Origin: Nitrosopumilus adriaticus
GTDB taxonomy: Archaea > Thermoproteota > Nitrososphaeria > Nitrososphaerales > Nitrosopumilaceae
Direction: 5' to 3'
NCBI RefSeq assembly: GCF_000956175.1
Contig: NZ_CP011070.1
Span: forward strand, 1,172,147-1,236,146
DNA: 64,000 nucleotides
Shown in pieces: positions 35,798-62,544 of this stretch. The first letter of the stretch is position 1. Every line of letters begins with the position of its first letter. Position numbers and translations under genes: made by a program. The notes below the pieces were generated by a model that saw only the letters and a list, made by a program, of their open reading frames with translations, searched no databases and had not been told where the DNA came from.

Positions 35798-36715
35798 TCA
35801 TTGTTCAAGTTTTTTCATTCTTCTTGATTCTATCAATATGACCACCAGAATAAATGCAAATAGCCACGGCAAAAACATAATTTCGCCTGCAATTTTGTGG
35901 TATTCTTCCCAAGCCACAGGATCTGTTGTTACCTTAAGAGCATACCAAGATAATGAAAAGATTCGAATCAGATTAACAGTGATTGTTCCAATTATCCCTA
36001 AAACAAAATACATTATTTTTCGGGGTCTTGGAATATTCAATTTTAGCATGAATGCTCCAATGACTAATGAAAAAATGATAATACTATGAACACCTGCAGA
36101 TGGCCAAAATACTTGTAAAGCCATAGAACCATGATCACCCCGAAGGAACATGACATTGTCTTTTGCCACTGCAGTTCCTAGATCAAGAACTGTGATAATC
36201 CACACATTTGCTTGAACAAAGTATGGAACAACATATTGTAATGGACCCAAAGTATCATATGGGAAAAATGCATCAAGGGAAAGAATAATTGCAGTGCCAA
36301 TTAAAAAGATCGGTCCAGCTGGTGCAATTCTAATCCATCGCTTGCCAAAGAAAATAGTCAATGCAGCAACAACAAAAATTGCCATTACAACAAAATCCCA
36401 CATCCATGTCCAGGAGTAAATTAATTGCACATCAAACTGCTCGGCTGATTCAACAAGATACTCTCTTAAACCATACTCTAATGAAATTAAATATCCAATA
36501 GTTAGAATTGCCATAGGAATAACTGTGAGTAATCGTTTTTTTGATAGGACAATTTTAAGACCAATTAATTCAGCTACTACGAAAACAAGTGCAAAGAAAT
36601 AACCTCCCCGACCTTCATTCCAACTCCATGCTATAGAATCAGGATATGCAATCATCGAGAAAAGAATTGGACTTGCAATTATGATAATTCCGAAAATAAG
36701 ATTCCAATTCTGCAT
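35798..36715 (-). CDS. archaeosortase/exosortase-like membrane enzyme
   Basis: The 305-residue protein has about eight hydrophobic segments. The C-terminal part carries the archaeosortase/exosortase layout. Family members use Cys-Arg-His; here the corresponding residues are Ser206 in FWPSAGVHS, Arg251 in VNLIRIF and His273 in EYHKIAGEI. Family enzymes are proposed to cleave a C-terminal sorting signal of exported proteins and attach them to lipid or transfer them to the surface. Serine in place of cysteine is the unusual point. The start is ATG at 36715. No sorting-signal substrate is adjacent. Confidence 0.78.
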   Translation of the reverse strand: MQNWNLIFGIIIIASPILFSMIAYPDSIAWSWNEGRGGYFFALVFVVAELIGLKIVLSKKRLLTVIPMAILTIGYLISLEYGLREYLVESAEQFDVQLIYSWTWMWDFVVMAIFVVAALTIFFGKRWIRIAPAGPIFLIGTAIILSLDAFFPYDTLGPLQYVVPYFVQANVWIITVLDLGTAVAKDNVMFLRGDHGSMALQVFWPSAGVHSIIIFSLVIGAFMLKLNIPRPRKIMYFVLGIIGTITVNLIRIFSLSWYALKVTTDPVAWEEYHKIAGEIMFLPWLFAFILVVILIESRRMKKLEQ

Positions 36716-36953: not shown

Positions 36954-37439
36954 TTAAGATGAAGGATCAAACTTGCATTCAATTTTCAGGGATTTTATTG
37001 TTGTAAAGTATGTGATAGTCAAAATTCCAATGGCAATTATTCTAATTGGTATTTCATAATTTGTTAAAAATGCAGTTGCAGTGGCCCCTACTGATCCAAA
37101 TGTTGAGATTACAGCAAATCCAATTGGCCCACAACTACATGCACCTGCAGCAGCACCAATGACAGATCCAAATATTCCGCCGCTAATTTTTTGTTTAGAT
37201 TTTTTAAGAATATTAATTCGAAATATGTTCATTGGTAAAACTAAAGCAGATAAAAAAGAAATTGTTAAAATTAGAATAAATCCAAATTCAGTACCAGAAG
37301 GAATGTGGCTTACTACATATGGCTCTAAGAATATGTATTCAGATAAAATTAGCAGGCCCACCATCATAGATGAAAAAATAATAATTGCTAAAAGAAGATA
37401 TTTGAAATTTGAAAATATCAGAGTTGTTACAGATGTCAT
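36954..37439 (-). CDS. four-helix membrane protein beside a DsbA-like gene
   Basis: The 161-residue protein has about four hydrophobic segments. Between the second and third lies KKSKQKISGGIFGSVIGAAAGACSCGPIGF, a Gly/Ala-rich stretch with a Cys-Ser-Cys motif, and a further cysteine is near the C-terminus. Its ATG follows the stop of the DsbA-like gene with no gap, so the two are translated together. A role in re-oxidising or holding the thiol protein, comparable to DsbB or VKOR, is an inference from position and cysteines; it is not homologous to either as far as I can see. Confidence 0.72.
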   Translation of the reverse strand: MTSVTTLIFSNFKYLLLAIIIFSSMMVGLLILSEYIFLEPYVVSHIPSGTEFGFILILTISFLSALVLPMNIFRINILKKSKQKISGGIFGSVIGAAAGACSCGPIGFAVISTFGSVGATATAFLTNYEIPIRIIAIGILTITYFTTIKSLKIECKFDPSS

Positions 37440-38102
37440 CTATGCCATTGTGTCCAATATTTGTTTGAACACTGAAAATGGTTGTGCACCACCAAGTTGC
37501 TGCTGTCCGTCTGGTCCTACAATAAAGAATCCAGGAGTTCCACGTACACCATTATCTCTTGCTTGTTGTGTATTATACTGCACACGTTTAGAATATTTTC
37601 CGGAATCAAGACAGCTTTCAAAAAGTTCCATGTCAAGACCTAAACTAAATGCAAATGCTTTTAGTCGTTCAGAATTTGCCCATCCTCCATCAATTTTTGA
37701 TTCTTGTGAGATGTAAAGTAAGTCATGGTAATCCCAATACATCCCTTGATCTTCAGCACAGTATGATGCTTGAGCTGCTTTTGGAGAATCTTTTCCTAAA
37801 AAGGCCATGTCAACAAAAACTAGATTTGCTTTTCCAGTTTCAATGTAATCACGTGTTATCGCAGGCTTGGTATTATGAAACCAATTATAACATTGATGGC
37901 ATTGATAATCACCAAATTCAACAATAGTTATTGGAGCAGAAGGATCTCCCAAAATTGCAGAACCCATAGCTGTAGAAATGGTTCCGTGTGTTCTACCCAT
38001 ATCAAGATTCACAGATTCTGAAGGAGAGGATGAAAGGGATGCTGCAACACCTGCAATAATTCCAATAACAATTACGCCTAGAATTACAGCTTTTTTGTTC
38101 AT
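37440..38102 (-). CDS. DsbA-family thiol oxidoreductase, membrane-anchored
   Basis: The 220-residue protein begins with a signal/anchor (residues 4-22) and then a DsbA/Thioredoxin_4 domain. The active pair is Cys68/Cys71 in GDYQCHQCYNW, and the cis-proline loop is VRGTPGFFIVG. Two more cysteines (SYCAED, ESCLDS) may form a structural disulfide. It should act outside the membrane, forming or reshuffling disulfides of exported proteins. Ammonia-oxidising archaea often carry several such proteins. The downstream membrane gene is directly coupled. The start is ATG at 38102. Confidence 0.9.
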   Translation of the reverse strand: MNKKAVILGVIVIGIIAGVAASLSSSPSESVNLDMGRTHGTISTAMGSAILGDPSAPITIVEFGDYQCHQCYNWFHNTKPAITRDYIETGKANLVFVDMAFLGKDSPKAAQASYCAEDQGMYWDYHDLLYISQESKIDGGWANSERLKAFAFSLGLDMELFESCLDSGKYSKRVQYNTQQARDNGVRGTPGFFIVGPDGQQQLGGAQPFSVFKQILDTMA

Positions 38103-43493: not shown

Positions 43494-46451
43494 TTACTTT
43501 ACATTAAAAAAATCAGTTACACGAAGATCGTGATATTCTAATTGTATAACATAAAGACCTGGATCAAATGGTTCAGATATTATTTCAGAGAACAACCCTG
43601 AAGAATTATCCTTCAGAGCAATCGCCTCTACAAGATTCCCTCTCTGATCAAAAATGTCAACAAACAGGTCCTCTCTAAAAGAAATTGTCTTCTGAACTGC
43701 ACCTGACACAATCAATTTATCATTTTCATAGGATGCTTCAATGACTGCGGTTCTGGAGCGAATTGGAAGATATCGTTCTATTATTAGCTTTAATTCATCA
43801 ATATTTTCATCTACACTTGCTGCATCTTTGTCAATAAAGCCAGCTTTAATTTCAGTGATCACAGATGAAAAGCGAGGATTACTAGCGAAATCATCACCGC
43901 CAAATTTTTCGGCAAATGATTCAAGTTCTTCAAACTCTCGAGCTAATTCAACTAAGTTCAAATCTGATGCACTGTATTTGTAGTCAAATTCTTCTTCAAC
44001 ATGAACAATTTGGGTCGCCTTTGAATCCTGGTACTGCAGCATCACCACATAGAGACCAGGATCAGTTGGAGCAATCCACTGAGTGTAAAAATTACCTTGT
44101 TTTGTATCAGTGAATTTTAAACTACTATGAGTACTACCATCCATATTGAAAATAGTTACGTATAGATTTTCACGTCTATCAAAAACAGATTTTTCAGTAG
44201 CACCATTTAGAACCCAGATATCTTTTTCAGCATCAAAGGAAATATCATAAATGATTTTTGGATTTTCTAAAACCAAATACTCACTAAGGTAGTCCCCAAT
44301 CTGTGAGATTTTAGATTCTGCATCAACAAAATTTGCAATGCTGATTAGTTCATTAGCATCATCCATCATTTTATTATATTCATCGACATATGCAGAAAAT
44401 TCACTGTTGTAAAAAGTAGAAACCATATTTGAGAAGGCATCAAGTTTTTTACGGAATTCAATTCGCTTTATTTCATCTGCAGTATATCCAACATCAGAAC
44501 CAAGAGGATCATTTGCATATGCTTGTGAAACATCAGTCCATTCTACAAATAATTCGCGCACTAAGAAATCAGCTTGATCAAGATCATTTTTGATTACAAG
44601 GTCTCGTACATCATCTATTTTCTCATTAAACTTGTCAGTGAATTCAATATAGTTTGGTAAGAAACGATTCTTTGTCAAACTAAGTTCAACTAAATTTTCA
44701 AGTGATTTTGCACGCTGTAGAATATCACTTGCACGTACTTTGAATGCATCTTTATCATATGAATCCAAATCAGATTTTATTTGAGGGGCCTTTTCACTCA
44801 CCCAAGTTAGTAAAACTTCAATTCTATCAATTCGGGTAATTGAGGGGTTTCCTGATTCCATTTGTTTGGCCGTATCCAAAATTTTGAGCGCATTATCAAT
44901 CAAAAACAGATTTTCATAATCTGCTTGAAGTTCAGCTTTTTGTTTCATAGTATTATATTGAAATTCTAAAACTAACAATGGGTTTCGTTTTTCTCTTAAT
45001 TCAGTCATGGATTGATCAAATTCAGATACAATTTCTAAGATCTCATCAGCAGATTCAGCATTTTCCACCCTTTCTAGTAGTGATTTCCAATCTTCCACAA
45101 GAGAAGAATCAATTCCACTTGATTGTGAAATCTCAACACTCTTGTTAATTCTGGATGATATGTCAATGATTTGAGCCATCTGTATTATTTCAGATTCTGA
45201 ATCCAAAATGTTTTGAACTGACGTTGCCAGAGCTAAATCAGTTTCTAAATTATCCCAATCAGGTATGATCAGATTAGCAAGATCACTGTTTTCTTCAGAA
45301 TCATTTGAAATAAATCGTTCAACATTATCTAATTCTCGCAGTAAGACTGCAGCTTGGTGCAATTCAGAAACACGGGTTTTTGATTCAATTAACTCAGCAA
45401 TTGACTCTTTACTCATCAAAGATGGTTTAAGGGACTCCCAATCATTTTGAACCAATCGATAAAGGTCACTTTGTTTTCTTGATACAACATCAAGATATCT
45501 TGATTTTGAAAGAATATCTATTAGTTCACTTAGTTCATCAGAGTAAATTGGAGCAGTGCCCCGTGCAAAAATAAATCCCACTTCATTTTTCACAGGTTTG
45601 CTCATTACAGTGTCAGATTTTTTCATCAAGTTTAACAATGTCTCCTCTAACTCATCAAATGTAGGAGTTTTTTGATTGCTTGTCTTTTCAGGATTTACAT
45701 TTCTAATATCCACAAATACATCACTTAACAAATCGATGGCTGTTGTTTTGTCACCAATTTGATAGTAAAATATTGCTGTATAGGTTGTTTCATCAATGGA
45801 CTTTGCAATATCAAAAGAAATTTCATCATCATCTAATAATTGTTGAACAGAATCAAGCGAAGAGGATACTGCGGGTCTAATTAACGGATCAACATCAAGA
45901 ATTAAGTCATCTGCAAAAAATTCAGTCCATAAATTAACATATGTTGATTCTAATTCAGACAGATTATTGGATGTTTGATTAGATATTGGGGATGAAACAT
46001 TAAACAAATCACTGATTAATGATGCTTGATCATTTACCAATTTTTGCGCCATTGAAATTTTTTCATCGTTATTAGGTTCTGAAAAAGTTGATGATGATAC
46101 AGTAAATGTTGTTGATTTGGCATAGTCACCATAAAACAATTTAATTTCATATTCACCAGAAATGCCACAAATCCTTCCTTTCAGTGGAATTACATCAGTG
46201 ATGAAAACCCCATTTGATAAAGGCATGAGTTGCTGGATTTGACATAAATCTCCTTGAGGATTAAAAATTTGCATAATTAAAAATGAGTCGTCAGTAATAC
46301 TTGCAATAGTACCATAAATGAAAAGAGGTTCACCACTCTCATAACTTCCAAAATCATCAAGAATTGTAATCCTATCAGGGCTCTGAGCAGTCGCATATAC
46401 AGGCATCAGCAATATTACCATTAGGCTCAGAACTACTGGAAATTTCCCCAT
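43494..46451 (-). CDS. large secreted helical/Ig-domain surface protein
   Basis: The 985-residue protein has a signal peptide (MGKFPVVLSLMVILLMPVYATAQS). An N-terminal macroglobulin-like domain follows (FGSYESGEPLFIYGTIASI). The long middle region (about 130-760) is helical and charged. Two related C-terminal domains resemble each other: VTIFNMDGSTHSS...TDPGLYVVMLQYQD and VDIFDQRGNLVEA...FDPGLYVIQLEYHD. No C-terminal membrane anchor is visible. It should be outside the membrane, on the S-layer or cell surface. The family is unnamed to me. Its 3' end lies one base from the reductase gene's stop. Confidence 0.8.
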   Translation of the reverse strand: MGKFPVVLSLMVILLMPVYATAQSPDRITILDDFGSYESGEPLFIYGTIASITDDSFLIMQIFNPQGDLCQIQQLMPLSNGVFITDVIPLKGRICGISGEYEIKLFYGDYAKSTTFTVSSSTFSEPNNDEKISMAQKLVNDQASLISDLFNVSSPISNQTSNNLSELESTYVNLWTEFFADDLILDVDPLIRPAVSSSLDSVQQLLDDDEISFDIAKSIDETTYTAIFYYQIGDKTTAIDLLSDVFVDIRNVNPEKTSNQKTPTFDELEETLLNLMKKSDTVMSKPVKNEVGFIFARGTAPIYSDELSELIDILSKSRYLDVVSRKQSDLYRLVQNDWESLKPSLMSKESIAELIESKTRVSELHQAAVLLRELDNVERFISNDSEENSDLANLIIPDWDNLETDLALATSVQNILDSESEIIQMAQIIDISSRINKSVEISQSSGIDSSLVEDWKSLLERVENAESADEILEIVSEFDQSMTELREKRNPLLVLEFQYNTMKQKAELQADYENLFLIDNALKILDTAKQMESGNPSITRIDRIEVLLTWVSEKAPQIKSDLDSYDKDAFKVRASDILQRAKSLENLVELSLTKNRFLPNYIEFTDKFNEKIDDVRDLVIKNDLDQADFLVRELFVEWTDVSQAYANDPLGSDVGYTADEIKRIEFRKKLDAFSNMVSTFYNSEFSAYVDEYNKMMDDANELISIANFVDAESKISQIGDYLSEYLVLENPKIIYDISFDAEKDIWVLNGATEKSVFDRRENLYVTIFNMDGSTHSSLKFTDTKQGNFYTQWIAPTDPGLYVVMLQYQDSKATQIVHVEEEFDYKYSASDLNLVELAREFEELESFAEKFGGDDFASNPRFSSVITEIKAGFIDKDAASVDENIDELKLIIERYLPIRSRTAVIEASYENDKLIVSGAVQKTISFREDLFVDIFDQRGNLVEAIALKDNSSGLFSEIISEPFDPGLYVIQLEYHDLRVTDFFNVK

Positions 46452-59256: not shown

Positions 59257-62200
59257 TTACTCTAGAGTTTTGTATGTGATTTTGTAATAGAAACGAGATG
59301 CCTGATCATCTTTGATAATCTCAACATTCCAATTTGTGTCAGACAAAAATGCATCAGATGATACAGGCAAAATACTGAATTTCTCCAATCGAACATCAGG
59401 GCCACTATACCTTACATTCAAAGAAACTCCATCAACTTCAACAACATCATAGATTTGTCCAGGTTTGCGTGTAGATTCACTCACAAAACAGTCAGCATCA
59501 GGTCCAATAATACAAATTCCAGTTTCACTTGAAATTCGGAGATTGACATTTGATTCATCTCCTCTGGTAGGAGTAATCAAAGAGCCTGAAATTACACGTG
59601 GTGCAACTGTTTGGTCATTTACAGTTTTTTCAGCAGTAAAAATAGAAATTGCATCTTCAGAAAGTCTATTTTCTTTCTCAATTAGCGTATCTAATTTCGG
59701 AGTTTTTGGTTTTTCAACTACATTGAATTTAATTGATTTTGCTTCAAAATCAGCATCAACTAATGCTTCGTATGAGCCAATTGCTGAGGGGGATGAAGGA
59801 ATGGTGAATTGGTATGTAAAGGTACCAGAGGAACTAGGGCGTATTGTAGTTACAGGGCCATGACTTTTACCACAAATAAAAGAGCCACAAGATATTTCGC
59901 TACCTGTTTTTTTAGCAACGCTTACTTCAAATTTTTCAAGATAGATTAGTTTGTTAGGTTTTCCAGTAATTACCACTACATCCCCTGGATAGTATTCAGA
60001 TTTATCAGTGAATAGTAAGAGAGACAGTGGTGCATCAAGACCAAAAGTGAAATCATTTACAACTGAAAACGTTGTTTCGGTTCTAGTATTTCCATACGAT
60101 GCTTTTACAGTATAACTTCCTTCAGCAAATATTGTTGCAGGAAGTTCAAAGAGGCTTGTAAAATCACCACCTTGTGTTGGATAAACAGAGGATTCATGAA
60201 TCTGTTTGTATGGGAATTTTCCATCAACAACTTTAATTGATACTCTCTCAGGAACAACAAGACCTTGATCACCTTGAACACGTTTGATAATATTTCCTAC
60301 TACCTTTAGTTTTTCACCAGCCTTGTATAATGATTTTTCAGTTGTTACAAAGATAGGGGTTTTTGACAATGTGTCGTTTTCAGGATCAGGGGATACTTTG
60401 AAGAAAAGAACATTGTTTTGAGAAGCTGTTGATACTTTGATTTTATAGATTCCAAAATTAGATTTTTTAACATCTCTTTCCTTGTCATCAATCTTTGAAC
60501 TTTGAGTTTTTTCAGAAATTGGAGTTCTCCAATCAAATGAAAATCGTTGTTCATTTACAATTGCCCCTTGATCAGTTCTTGTTCCATCAGGTCTTGTAAT
60601 TGTAATGACTACAGAATTATCACTAGTAGGAGGCAATATTCCAGTAAGACGAACTGTTTCGCCTAGACCATAGACTTCTTTATCAGTAGAGATAATTGCC
60701 CCGTCTTTCAAATCAAGAGAATTTGCAGTTTCAAAACTAGTAGAAGCTGATAGTCCTTCATACTTTGCTTGCACAAGGTATTTTCCTTCAGAGAAAATAA
60801 GTTTGCTCAACTCAGTTGTCACAGAAAATATTCCAGAGGATTCAGGAATTGCAGTAAAATCATACCCTATTGAAACACCACTGGTAGATAGTTTTCCTGC
60901 ATCAGCTGATCCTATAATTTGTAAGGGTTTGCCATCTTCAGTCAAGATTTTTACTTTAACAGGTTCTGTTTCAAAACTGGCTCGAGATACAGTATTTGCT
61001 ATTTGTCCTGTGATAATGATTTTTTTATCCAAACCAAATTCATAGATGGATTTATCAGTGAATACAGTAAGAGGAGTGGTTGATTTCACATATGTGGATG
61101 GATCTTTTACCACTTGAATAAATTTAGTTGCAGAGCCAATATCTTTACTGACCTTTATAGAATAACCCCCTAATCGAGTGTCACTTTGTGGGATTTTAAA
61201 AGAATATTTGAATTTGCTATCTCCATCCAATCTCACAACGTCGAGGATTTTCAGTGTGGAGCCACCACCAGTACTTCCACCCAAAGAAAGATTCTTGGTC
61301 TGAATAATTTCTAAATTAAAGGAATCTACCCATTTGTCATTTAAACGACCAGTAATGTTTACAGTTTCACCAAGTCCATAAACTTCCTTATCAGTCCAAA
61401 GTGAAATAGGCACATTTTCTTTGACATCCGTGTTTACATCAAAATAAATCAGTGCAGATTTGTCAAAATATTCAGCGTACACCTCATATGTACCGTAGAC
61501 AGGATTTACTGTAGTCAAAAATAAGCTAGTTGAGAATTTATCTTTTGTAGGATACAGATTGCCACTAGAGACAACTTTACCCTGAGGATCTTTTACAGTT
61601 AATTTCATTCCTTCAAATGGAATTGTTTCAGAAGTAACACCAGTTATTGAAACTAGTTGCCCTGGAATGTATTGTGATTTATCTGTAATAATACTTAGAG
61701 AAGAATCATCTTTAGTTTTTTGCTCTAATATTTCATAGCCTACAGAAAAATTTGTTTTGGTACTTGCGCCAGCATATGAAACAGATACGGTATATTCACC
61801 CTCTTTGATTCCCAGAACTTGATGTAAATTCAGAGTCGTTTTGTAATTTAGTTTCAGATCAGGGTATAATTTTAGAGATTGGAAATAGTTGGGGCCAGAA
61901 ATCTCCACGTTGATTGGTTCAGATTGGAAAAATGGCTTTACAATAAAAACTTCTTTGGATACACTTCCAGATATTTTTGCAGTTTGTCCAAACAAATAAG
62001 ATGATTTGTCAGTAGATACAGTTACAGTTATTTCATCAGATGCTTTAGTTTCTAAAATTTTTCCATTTGATGAGCCAGCAGTGGATGTTGCAAACTTCCA
62101 ATCATCTGAACTATCAAAATCATATCCATCAAAAATTCGCTGCCATGATTTAAAGTCATTTTGAATATCTGCAATAAGAGGAGTCTTATCAACTACAACT

Positions 62201-62544
62201 CCATTCTTGTCTCTTAGTTCGACCATTTCATTTGAATCAGTAAACCAAACACTTTGATAAGAATATGTCAAAAATTGTCCAGGCTTTATGATGGTTCCAT
62301 CAGGTATTGTCATTGTTTTTTTCAGAACGGTAGTGGATGCAATTTTCCAACCACCTAAATCAACATCAGAGTTTGTGGGATTGTAAAGCTCAACCCACTC
62401 TGAGATTGATGTTGCATCATTTCCAGGAGGATTGATATCCACTTCATTAATTACAACATGATCAGTATTTGTTTGAGCATATGCGGGAACAATTATTCCT
62501 ACAAGTAATACCAAAGATAAAACTAGAGATAGATTACGAATCAT
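59257..62544 (-). CDS. large secreted lamin-tail/macroglobulin-repeat surface protein
   Basis: The 1095-residue protein has a signal peptide (MIRNLSLVLSLVLLVGIIVPAYAQ). A lamin-tail domain (LTD) follows at about 28-170 (VVINEVDINPPG, EWVELYNPTN, GWKIASTT). After it come seven repeats that open with a pattern like TDKxxYxxGxxVxITG, as in DKSSYLFGQTAKISGS, DKSQYIPGQLVSITG and DKEVYGLGETVNITG. Each unit is about 100 residues, like macroglobulin MG2 domains, except the last, which is longer. I see no C-terminal anchor. It is probably extracellular and structural or adhesive. Confidence 0.83.
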   Translation of the reverse strand: MIRNLSLVLSLVLLVGIIVPAYAQTNTDHVVINEVDINPPGNDATSISEWVELYNPTNSDVDLGGWKIASTTVLKKTMTIPDGTIIKPGQFLTYSYQSVWFTDSNEMVELRDKNGVVVDKTPLIADIQNDFKSWQRIFDGYDFDSSDDWKFATSTAGSSNGKILETKASDEITVTVSTDKSSYLFGQTAKISGSVSKEVFIVKPFFQSEPINVEISGPNYFQSLKLYPDLKLNYKTTLNLHQVLGIKEGEYTVSVSYAGASTKTNFSVGYEILEQKTKDDSSLSIITDKSQYIPGQLVSITGVTSETIPFEGMKLTVKDPQGKVVSSGNLYPTKDKFSTSLFLTTVNPVYGTYEVYAEYFDKSALIYFDVNTDVKENVPISLWTDKEVYGLGETVNITGRLNDKWVDSFNLEIIQTKNLSLGGSTGGGSTLKILDVVRLDGDSKFKYSFKIPQSDTRLGGYSIKVSKDIGSATKFIQVVKDPSTYVKSTTPLTVFTDKSIYEFGLDKKIIITGQIANTVSRASFETEPVKVKILTEDGKPLQIIGSADAGKLSTSGVSIGYDFTAIPESSGIFSVTTELSKLIFSEGKYLVQAKYEGLSASTSFETANSLDLKDGAIISTDKEVYGLGETVRLTGILPPTSDNSVVITITRPDGTRTDQGAIVNEQRFSFDWRTPISEKTQSSKIDDKERDVKKSNFGIYKIKVSTASQNNVLFFKVSPDPENDTLSKTPIFVTTEKSLYKAGEKLKVVGNIIKRVQGDQGLVVPERVSIKVVDGKFPYKQIHESSVYPTQGGDFTSLFELPATIFAEGSYTVKASYGNTRTETTFSVVNDFTFGLDAPLSLLLFTDKSEYYPGDVVVITGKPNKLIYLEKFEVSVAKKTGSEISCGSFICGKSHGPVTTIRPSSSGTFTYQFTIPSSPSAIGSYEALVDADFEAKSIKFNVVEKPKTPKLDTLIEKENRLSEDAISIFTAEKTVNDQTVAPRVISGSLITPTRGDESNVNLRISSETGICIIGPDADCFVSESTRKPGQIYDVVEVDGVSLNVRYSGPDVRLEKFSILPVSSDAFLSDTNWNVEIIKDDQASRFYYKITYKTLE

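Follow-up and report, generated by a model that had tools for sequence, protein, structure and literature searches.

The gene at 35798..36715 on the reverse strand of the window (the whole stretch of 64,000 nucleotides of Nitrosopumilus adriaticus DNA that was analysed) raises the question of whether a sorting enzyme of the archaeosortase type can work with a serine nucleophile. In the available portions of PMC7157517 and PMC11980579, both archaeosortases and exosortases count as cysteine enzymes, and the reaction that follows cleavage is given as unresolved. The initial annotation read the product of this gene, a 305 aa protein with an ATG start (the coordinates include the stop codon), as an archaeosortase-like enzyme with Ser at the expected position of the catalytic Cys. 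The results given below support that reading, and we consider it probable that the product is an archaeosortase with a serine nucleophile, which cleaves PEF tails and delivers the substrate protein to an acceptor, possibly a lipid.

The protein matches the thaumarchaeosortase profile of NCBIfam (TIGR04297) over its full length at 614.5 bits (cut-off 250) and the exosortase/archaeosortase profile TIGR04178 at 44.4 bits over residues 201-294 (cut-off 23). The third NCBIfam match, archaeosortase C (TIGR03762; E 2.2e-4, 21.1 bits), did not reach the cut-off of 100, and a Pfam search gave no match. By these profile scores, the protein is a member of an already named family rather than an unclassified oddity. 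The term 'thaumarchaeosortase' was not found in the open-access papers that our literature search covered, and among the matches listed there for archaeosortase together with Thaumarchaeota or ammonia-oxidizing, no study of a Ser enzyme was evident.

The 193 phmmer hits, one of which is the window's own copy, yielded 168 distinct homologues; in their alignment, the column of the catalytic Cys, residue 206 of the window protein, holds Ser in 147 and Cys in 21, and R251 and H273 are conserved in all 167 rows that have a residue at those columns. The proposed register of the triad is thus borne out: Ser206 (codon 36098..36100, context WPSAG), Arg251 (codon 35963..35965, context NLIR, within the NxxR motif) and His273 (codon 35897..35899, context YHKIAG, within the FH/YHxxxG motif), all on the reverse strand and with coordinates counted from the ORF start, occupy the positions of the catalytic Cys, Arg and His. 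Accordingly, the conserved Arg and downstream His (or Arg) of the superfamily are present, and its catalytic Cys is missing from the window protein, which has no Cys at all over 305 aa. A conserved cysteine elsewhere, which would have undermined the assignment, was sought across the 148 Ser-type proteins (the window protein included) and none was found, the best column holding Cys in 10 of 148; 112 of these proteins contain no Cys, 31 contain one and five contain two, so the Ser-type enzymes have no replacement thiol. The gene in one genome (L247 in G132) lies inside a far longer open frame of 619 aa, possibly a fusion.

The loss of the catalytic Cys would suit a pseudo-enzyme that merely binds PEF tails and serves as a membrane chaperone, receptor or retention factor, the more so as Cys173 of ArtA is reported to be critical for activity in the accessible part of PMC9263693. 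A dead site should drift, however, and Ser206 is unchanged across all 148 Ser-type rows, with Arg and His kept in every such row that has the residue; furthermore, a second family, described below, made the same Cys-to-Ser change and also keeps both residues. We regard the pseudo-enzyme as quite unlikely.

The serine-nucleophile archaeosortase would also have to present its active site on the outer face of the membrane. The protein is polytopic, with nine hydropathy segments, and its K/R-rich loops would be consistent with eight membrane crossings that place S206 and H273 outside, provided that segment 166-184 does not cross. The AlphaFold2 model (59 sequences; pLDDT 84.8, pTM 0.80) is weakest exactly at the nucleophile, where the mean pLDDT over residues 201-210 is 55, and therefore is no test of the triad. 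A sequence search of the PDB returned no meaningful relative (best E 0.71), and Foldseek gave no match at E<=0.001.

Where, then, are the substrates? No ORF of the window ends in a PEF-type tail, as expected from the remark in the initial annotation that no sorting-signal protein is adjacent. This result, at the same time, extends to the large surface proteins of the window, which it named as candidates to compare and which carry no such tail. The rest of the genome (1.80 Mb, single contig), as predicted there, does contain such proteins: eight PEFG-CTERM (TIGR04296) tails score over the cut-off, all outside the window, along with one TIGR04297 gene and no second TIGR04178 protein over the cut-off. 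Four of the eight are consecutive at C1:1523.7-1526.5 kb, three of them with an identical tail and the fourth with a PEFS variant; two of the eight are cupredoxins with a C-x-H-P-W-M motif (L002 and L009), of which only L009 matches Pfam Copper-bind. In these tails, a PEF[G/P/E/S] motif is followed by a hydrophobic segment and then by a basic tip. In cultures, three PEFG-CTERM proteins were 4 to 10 times higher without catalase, according to the available text of PMC6593220.

Across the class, the TIGR04297 enzyme was detected at E<=0.001 in 226 of 350 genomes (211 over the cut-off) and the TIGR04296 tail in 223. Both were present in 210 genomes, the enzyme only in 16, the tail only in 13 and neither in 111; in the 219 good genomes (completeness >=90%, contamination <=5%), the respective numbers are 149, 8, 0 and 62, all of these counts being taken on related genomes, that is, not on phylogenetically independent events. 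Hence tails do accompany the Ser homologues; their absence would have spoken against the initial annotation. Of the 13 tail-only genomes, 12 are less than 90% complete, so that the enzyme could simply be missing from the assembly, and the remaining one, G343, has a completeness of 96% and a contamination of 6%. Neither tail nor enzyme was found in any of 14 control genomes (E<=0.001). Against the serine-archaeosortase reading stand the eight good genomes with the enzyme and no tail at E<=0.001, and G168, which has a strong PEFP tail and no enzyme. PEFP tails were seen in two complete genomes without a TIGR04297 match (L338 in G168 and L356 in G095).

Part of the mismatch concerns the tail model. 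PEF C-termini were found in nine genomes where only the enzyme had been detected (G256, G305, G004, G275, G317, G188, G165, G170 and G248), and none was seen in G213, G276 and G335 with a profile built from 29 diverse tails and on reading of the C-termini. Because PEF tails occur in Ser-enzyme genomes without TIGR04296 matches (for example, G305, G004 and G256), the PEF signal core is broader than the TIGR04296 model. The 29-tail profile has matches in 24 of 37 chosen genomes (E<=0.1), PEFP, PEFE and PEFG forms coexist in the same genome (tails from two other families), and the known archaeal PEF-CTERM model, TIGR03024, gave only sub-threshold scores on the PEF tails examined.

The tails could also be ordinary membrane anchors that involve no enzyme, their co-occurrence with the TIGR04297 gene reflecting the shared ancestry of the genomes. 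Most of the positives indeed come from one family, f1, and SlaB-like proteins demonstrate that plain C-terminal anchors exist in these cells. Such anchors would hardly account for the identity of P, E and F in 29 of 29 tails (the motif filters fixed P and F, and E, which was not fixed in later collections, is only a partly free result), for the lack of any good genome with TIGR04296 tails and no enzyme, or for lineages of the same order that are without both; we consider this explanation very unlikely. As for SlaB itself, the main S-layer stalk was rejected as a substrate: a plain membrane helix with no PEF closes the roughly 330-aa SlaB-like proteins, that of the N. adriaticus genome (L369) among them. 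A 421 aa protein of G170 (L343) combines a match to the Metallosphaera SlaB profile with a PEFP C-terminus, and a SlaB-like N-terminal part plus a PEFP tail was noticed in L343/L390 of G170 and L391 of G165. SlaB-like matches, the enzyme and the PEFG tail were all missing from the five g24 genomes searched and from G081 and G114; we suspect that g24 is Nitrosocosmicus, which is described as having neither slp nor slaB in the part of PMC11559005 that was available.

The gene neighbourhood is conserved to different depths. The 80 closest loci listed include 76 titled Nitrosopumilus, Nitrosopelagicus or another thaumarchaeal group and four titled only 'archaeon'. Where there is room for it, every one of the 76 close loci retains the convergent gene for DNA polymerase IV; of the wider loci, 33 of 56 do. 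Upstream, also on the reverse strand, lie genes for a membrane protein of 161 aa that contains a CSCGP motif (36954-37439) and a DsbA-like thioredoxin protein (37440-38102). The thioredoxin-like gene is kept in 68 and the membrane protein gene in 67 of 76 close loci, and they are nearly absent from the wider loci (0/55 and 2/55, respectively); they are therefore local neighbours, not partners. The 985-aa protein encoded at 43494-46451 (reverse strand) has a T9SS type A tail match at 24.4 bits, against a cut-off of 23, located mid-protein (760-814), which is probably a match to an Ig-like fold; neither this protein nor that encoded at 59257-62544 has a PDB relative at E<=0.001.

When did the serine appear? 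The TIGR04178 profile has matches in 114 of 300 genomes of the phylum. In the 66 TIGR04178-positive genomes outside the class, TIGR04297 matches at E<=0.001 in 41 and over the cut-off in none; 13 rows added from these genomes all have Cys, as did the rows read earlier, and full-length relatives in the other classes of the phylum carry Cys. The closest Cys-type relatives (L212, L253 and L255-L257) match TIGR04297 at 115-164 bits. IPEFP tails are present in three genomes with a Cys sister enzyme (G373, G387 and G466), and no PEF tail was seen in two others (G486 and G535); given the tails in those three, the signal core survived the Cys/Ser swap.

In a tree of 81 rows built after masking of the nucleophile column (80%-identity clusters without rows shorter than 230 aa, plus the 13 outside-class rows), one weakly supported branch (SH-aLRT 77) parts Ser from Cys, and the 48 Ser rows group with seven Cys rows with an SH-aLRT of 99. 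Just three columns, S206, P283 and L255, tell the 33 Cys rows apart from the 48 Ser rows without exception. Leu255 (R+4; codon 35951..35953, reverse strand) is Leu in all 147 Ser-type rows counted, and the 21 Cys-type rows carry either Ile or Tyr there; Pro283 (H+10; codon 35867..35869, reverse strand) is Pro in 147 of 147 Ser-type and 0 of 21 Cys-type rows, so that both separate Ser from Cys perfectly within this family. Most of the other invariants of the Ser family are also present in the five closest Cys rows, and hence the switch to Ser is nearly isolated. All 148 Ser-type rows encode Ser206 by a TCN codon; this is no proof of a single origin and is only compatible with one, given that codon use is equally uniform at other serines, with TCN at the conserved Ser254 and Ser256 and AGY at Ser211. 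Judging from the trees, a single origin of Ser in this family is likely. Two genomes of family f1 encode extra Cys-type exosortase-like proteins in addition to the Ser enzyme (L196 in G015 and L248 in G068); an oxidative-stress motive for avoiding a surface thiol was dropped because Cys paralogues persist in f1.

A second family, of about 700 aa, with XrtD and XrtW as its best NCBIfam relatives, far below the cut-off, shows [P/A]SSG where relatives from other classes show ACSG, and keeps Arg and His. It was found in 10 of 201 genomes of the order, with Ser in nine (L206, L210, L394 and L396-L401) and Cys in a weak tenth (L402). Around its genes (L405 and L406), glycosyltransferase-like ORFs were recognised by eye as neighbours. 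Pro283 was rejected as a general hallmark of Ser chemistry, being Pro in the second Ser family only in g23 (L206, L210 and L394) and Ile or Val in the other second-family sequences read. A 55-row tree of both families, again with the nucleophile column masked, requires two Cys/Ser changes; constraining every Ser row to a common clade costs 237 log-likelihood units and is rejected (p-AU 2e-42). In that tree, the second Ser group forms a single clade (95/87) nested among its family's Cys rows (97/98); the branch side of the first Ser group is supported at 38/4, and the first Ser group plus five Cys rows at 97/97. The Ser codons of the second family are AGT in five and TCA in four, so a further change there is possible. 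On this evidence, chances are about even that two unrelated families of the same order independently swapped Cys for Ser, kept Arg and His (and, in the PEF family, the signal core), and act as serine transpeptidases via an ester.

From the alignments and by analogy, we infer serine catalysis, the cleavage site, the ester intermediate and the acceptor of the window enzyme. Secreted proteins with a PEF[G/P/E/S] tail would be retained in the membrane; Ser206 on the outer face, aided by His273 and Arg251, would attack a bond near PEF; an ester rather than a thioester acyl-enzyme would form, and the tail peptide would be freed. The new C-terminus would then be transferred to an acceptor, possibly an amine-bearing lipid, as in the model for ArtA, in which an acyl-enzyme precedes transfer to lipid and which is speculative as presented in the available sections of PMC7157517.

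Alternatively, Ser206 might act as a protease only: the PEF tails would be hydrolysed off and the proteins released, with neither a lipid nor any other acceptor involved. Serine acyl-enzymes are commonly resolved by water, and small cupredoxin-like substrates could be soluble carriers, the C-x-H-x-M copper motif being present in 17 of 69 PEF proteins. The Cys relatives, however, are regarded as transpeptidases in the accessible part of PMC7157517, and a protease without transfer seems unlikely, if by no means negligible.

If the gene product is indeed a serine archaeosortase, the enzyme and its matching PEF-type tails amount to a natural test of whether such a sorting enzyme works with serine, and a lineage-wide natural Ser enzyme with a defined signal, set beside Cys sisters with the PEF core, provides a clean pair for testing the chemistry required. 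Two independent Cys-to-Ser swaps in working transpeptidases, if true, would mean that the nucleophile of the superfamily is exchangeable while the substrate code is retained. Because copper proteins of ammonia oxidisers that resemble plastocyanin are among the candidate substrates, the enzyme may be relevant to the surface placement of copper proteins in these abundant archaea.

Compared with known systems, the window protein is a typical thaumarchaeosortase, with no difference from TIGR04297. With archaeosortase C (TIGR03762) and PEF-CTERM (TIGR03024), which archaeosortase C recognises according to the part of PMC5244752 available, citing Haft 2012, the system shares a PEF-type signal; however, the Cys-type relatives examined are, like the window protein, below the archaeosortase C cut-off, and the tails examined are below that of TIGR03024. 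The superfamily and a tripartite C-terminal signal are common to this system and Haloferax ArtA with PGF-CTERM, whereas the triad of ArtA is Cys173, Arg214 and Arg253 (PMC9263693, available text) as opposed to Ser, Arg and His here, so that the third catalytic residue varies within the superfamily (Arg253 in ArtA, His273 here). Rhombosortase RssP, with GlyGly-CTERM, is likewise a serine enzyme acting on a tripartite C-terminal signal but belongs to the rhomboid family, described in the available portion of PMC11980579 as unrelated to archaeosortases, whereas the window protein is of the archaeosortase type.
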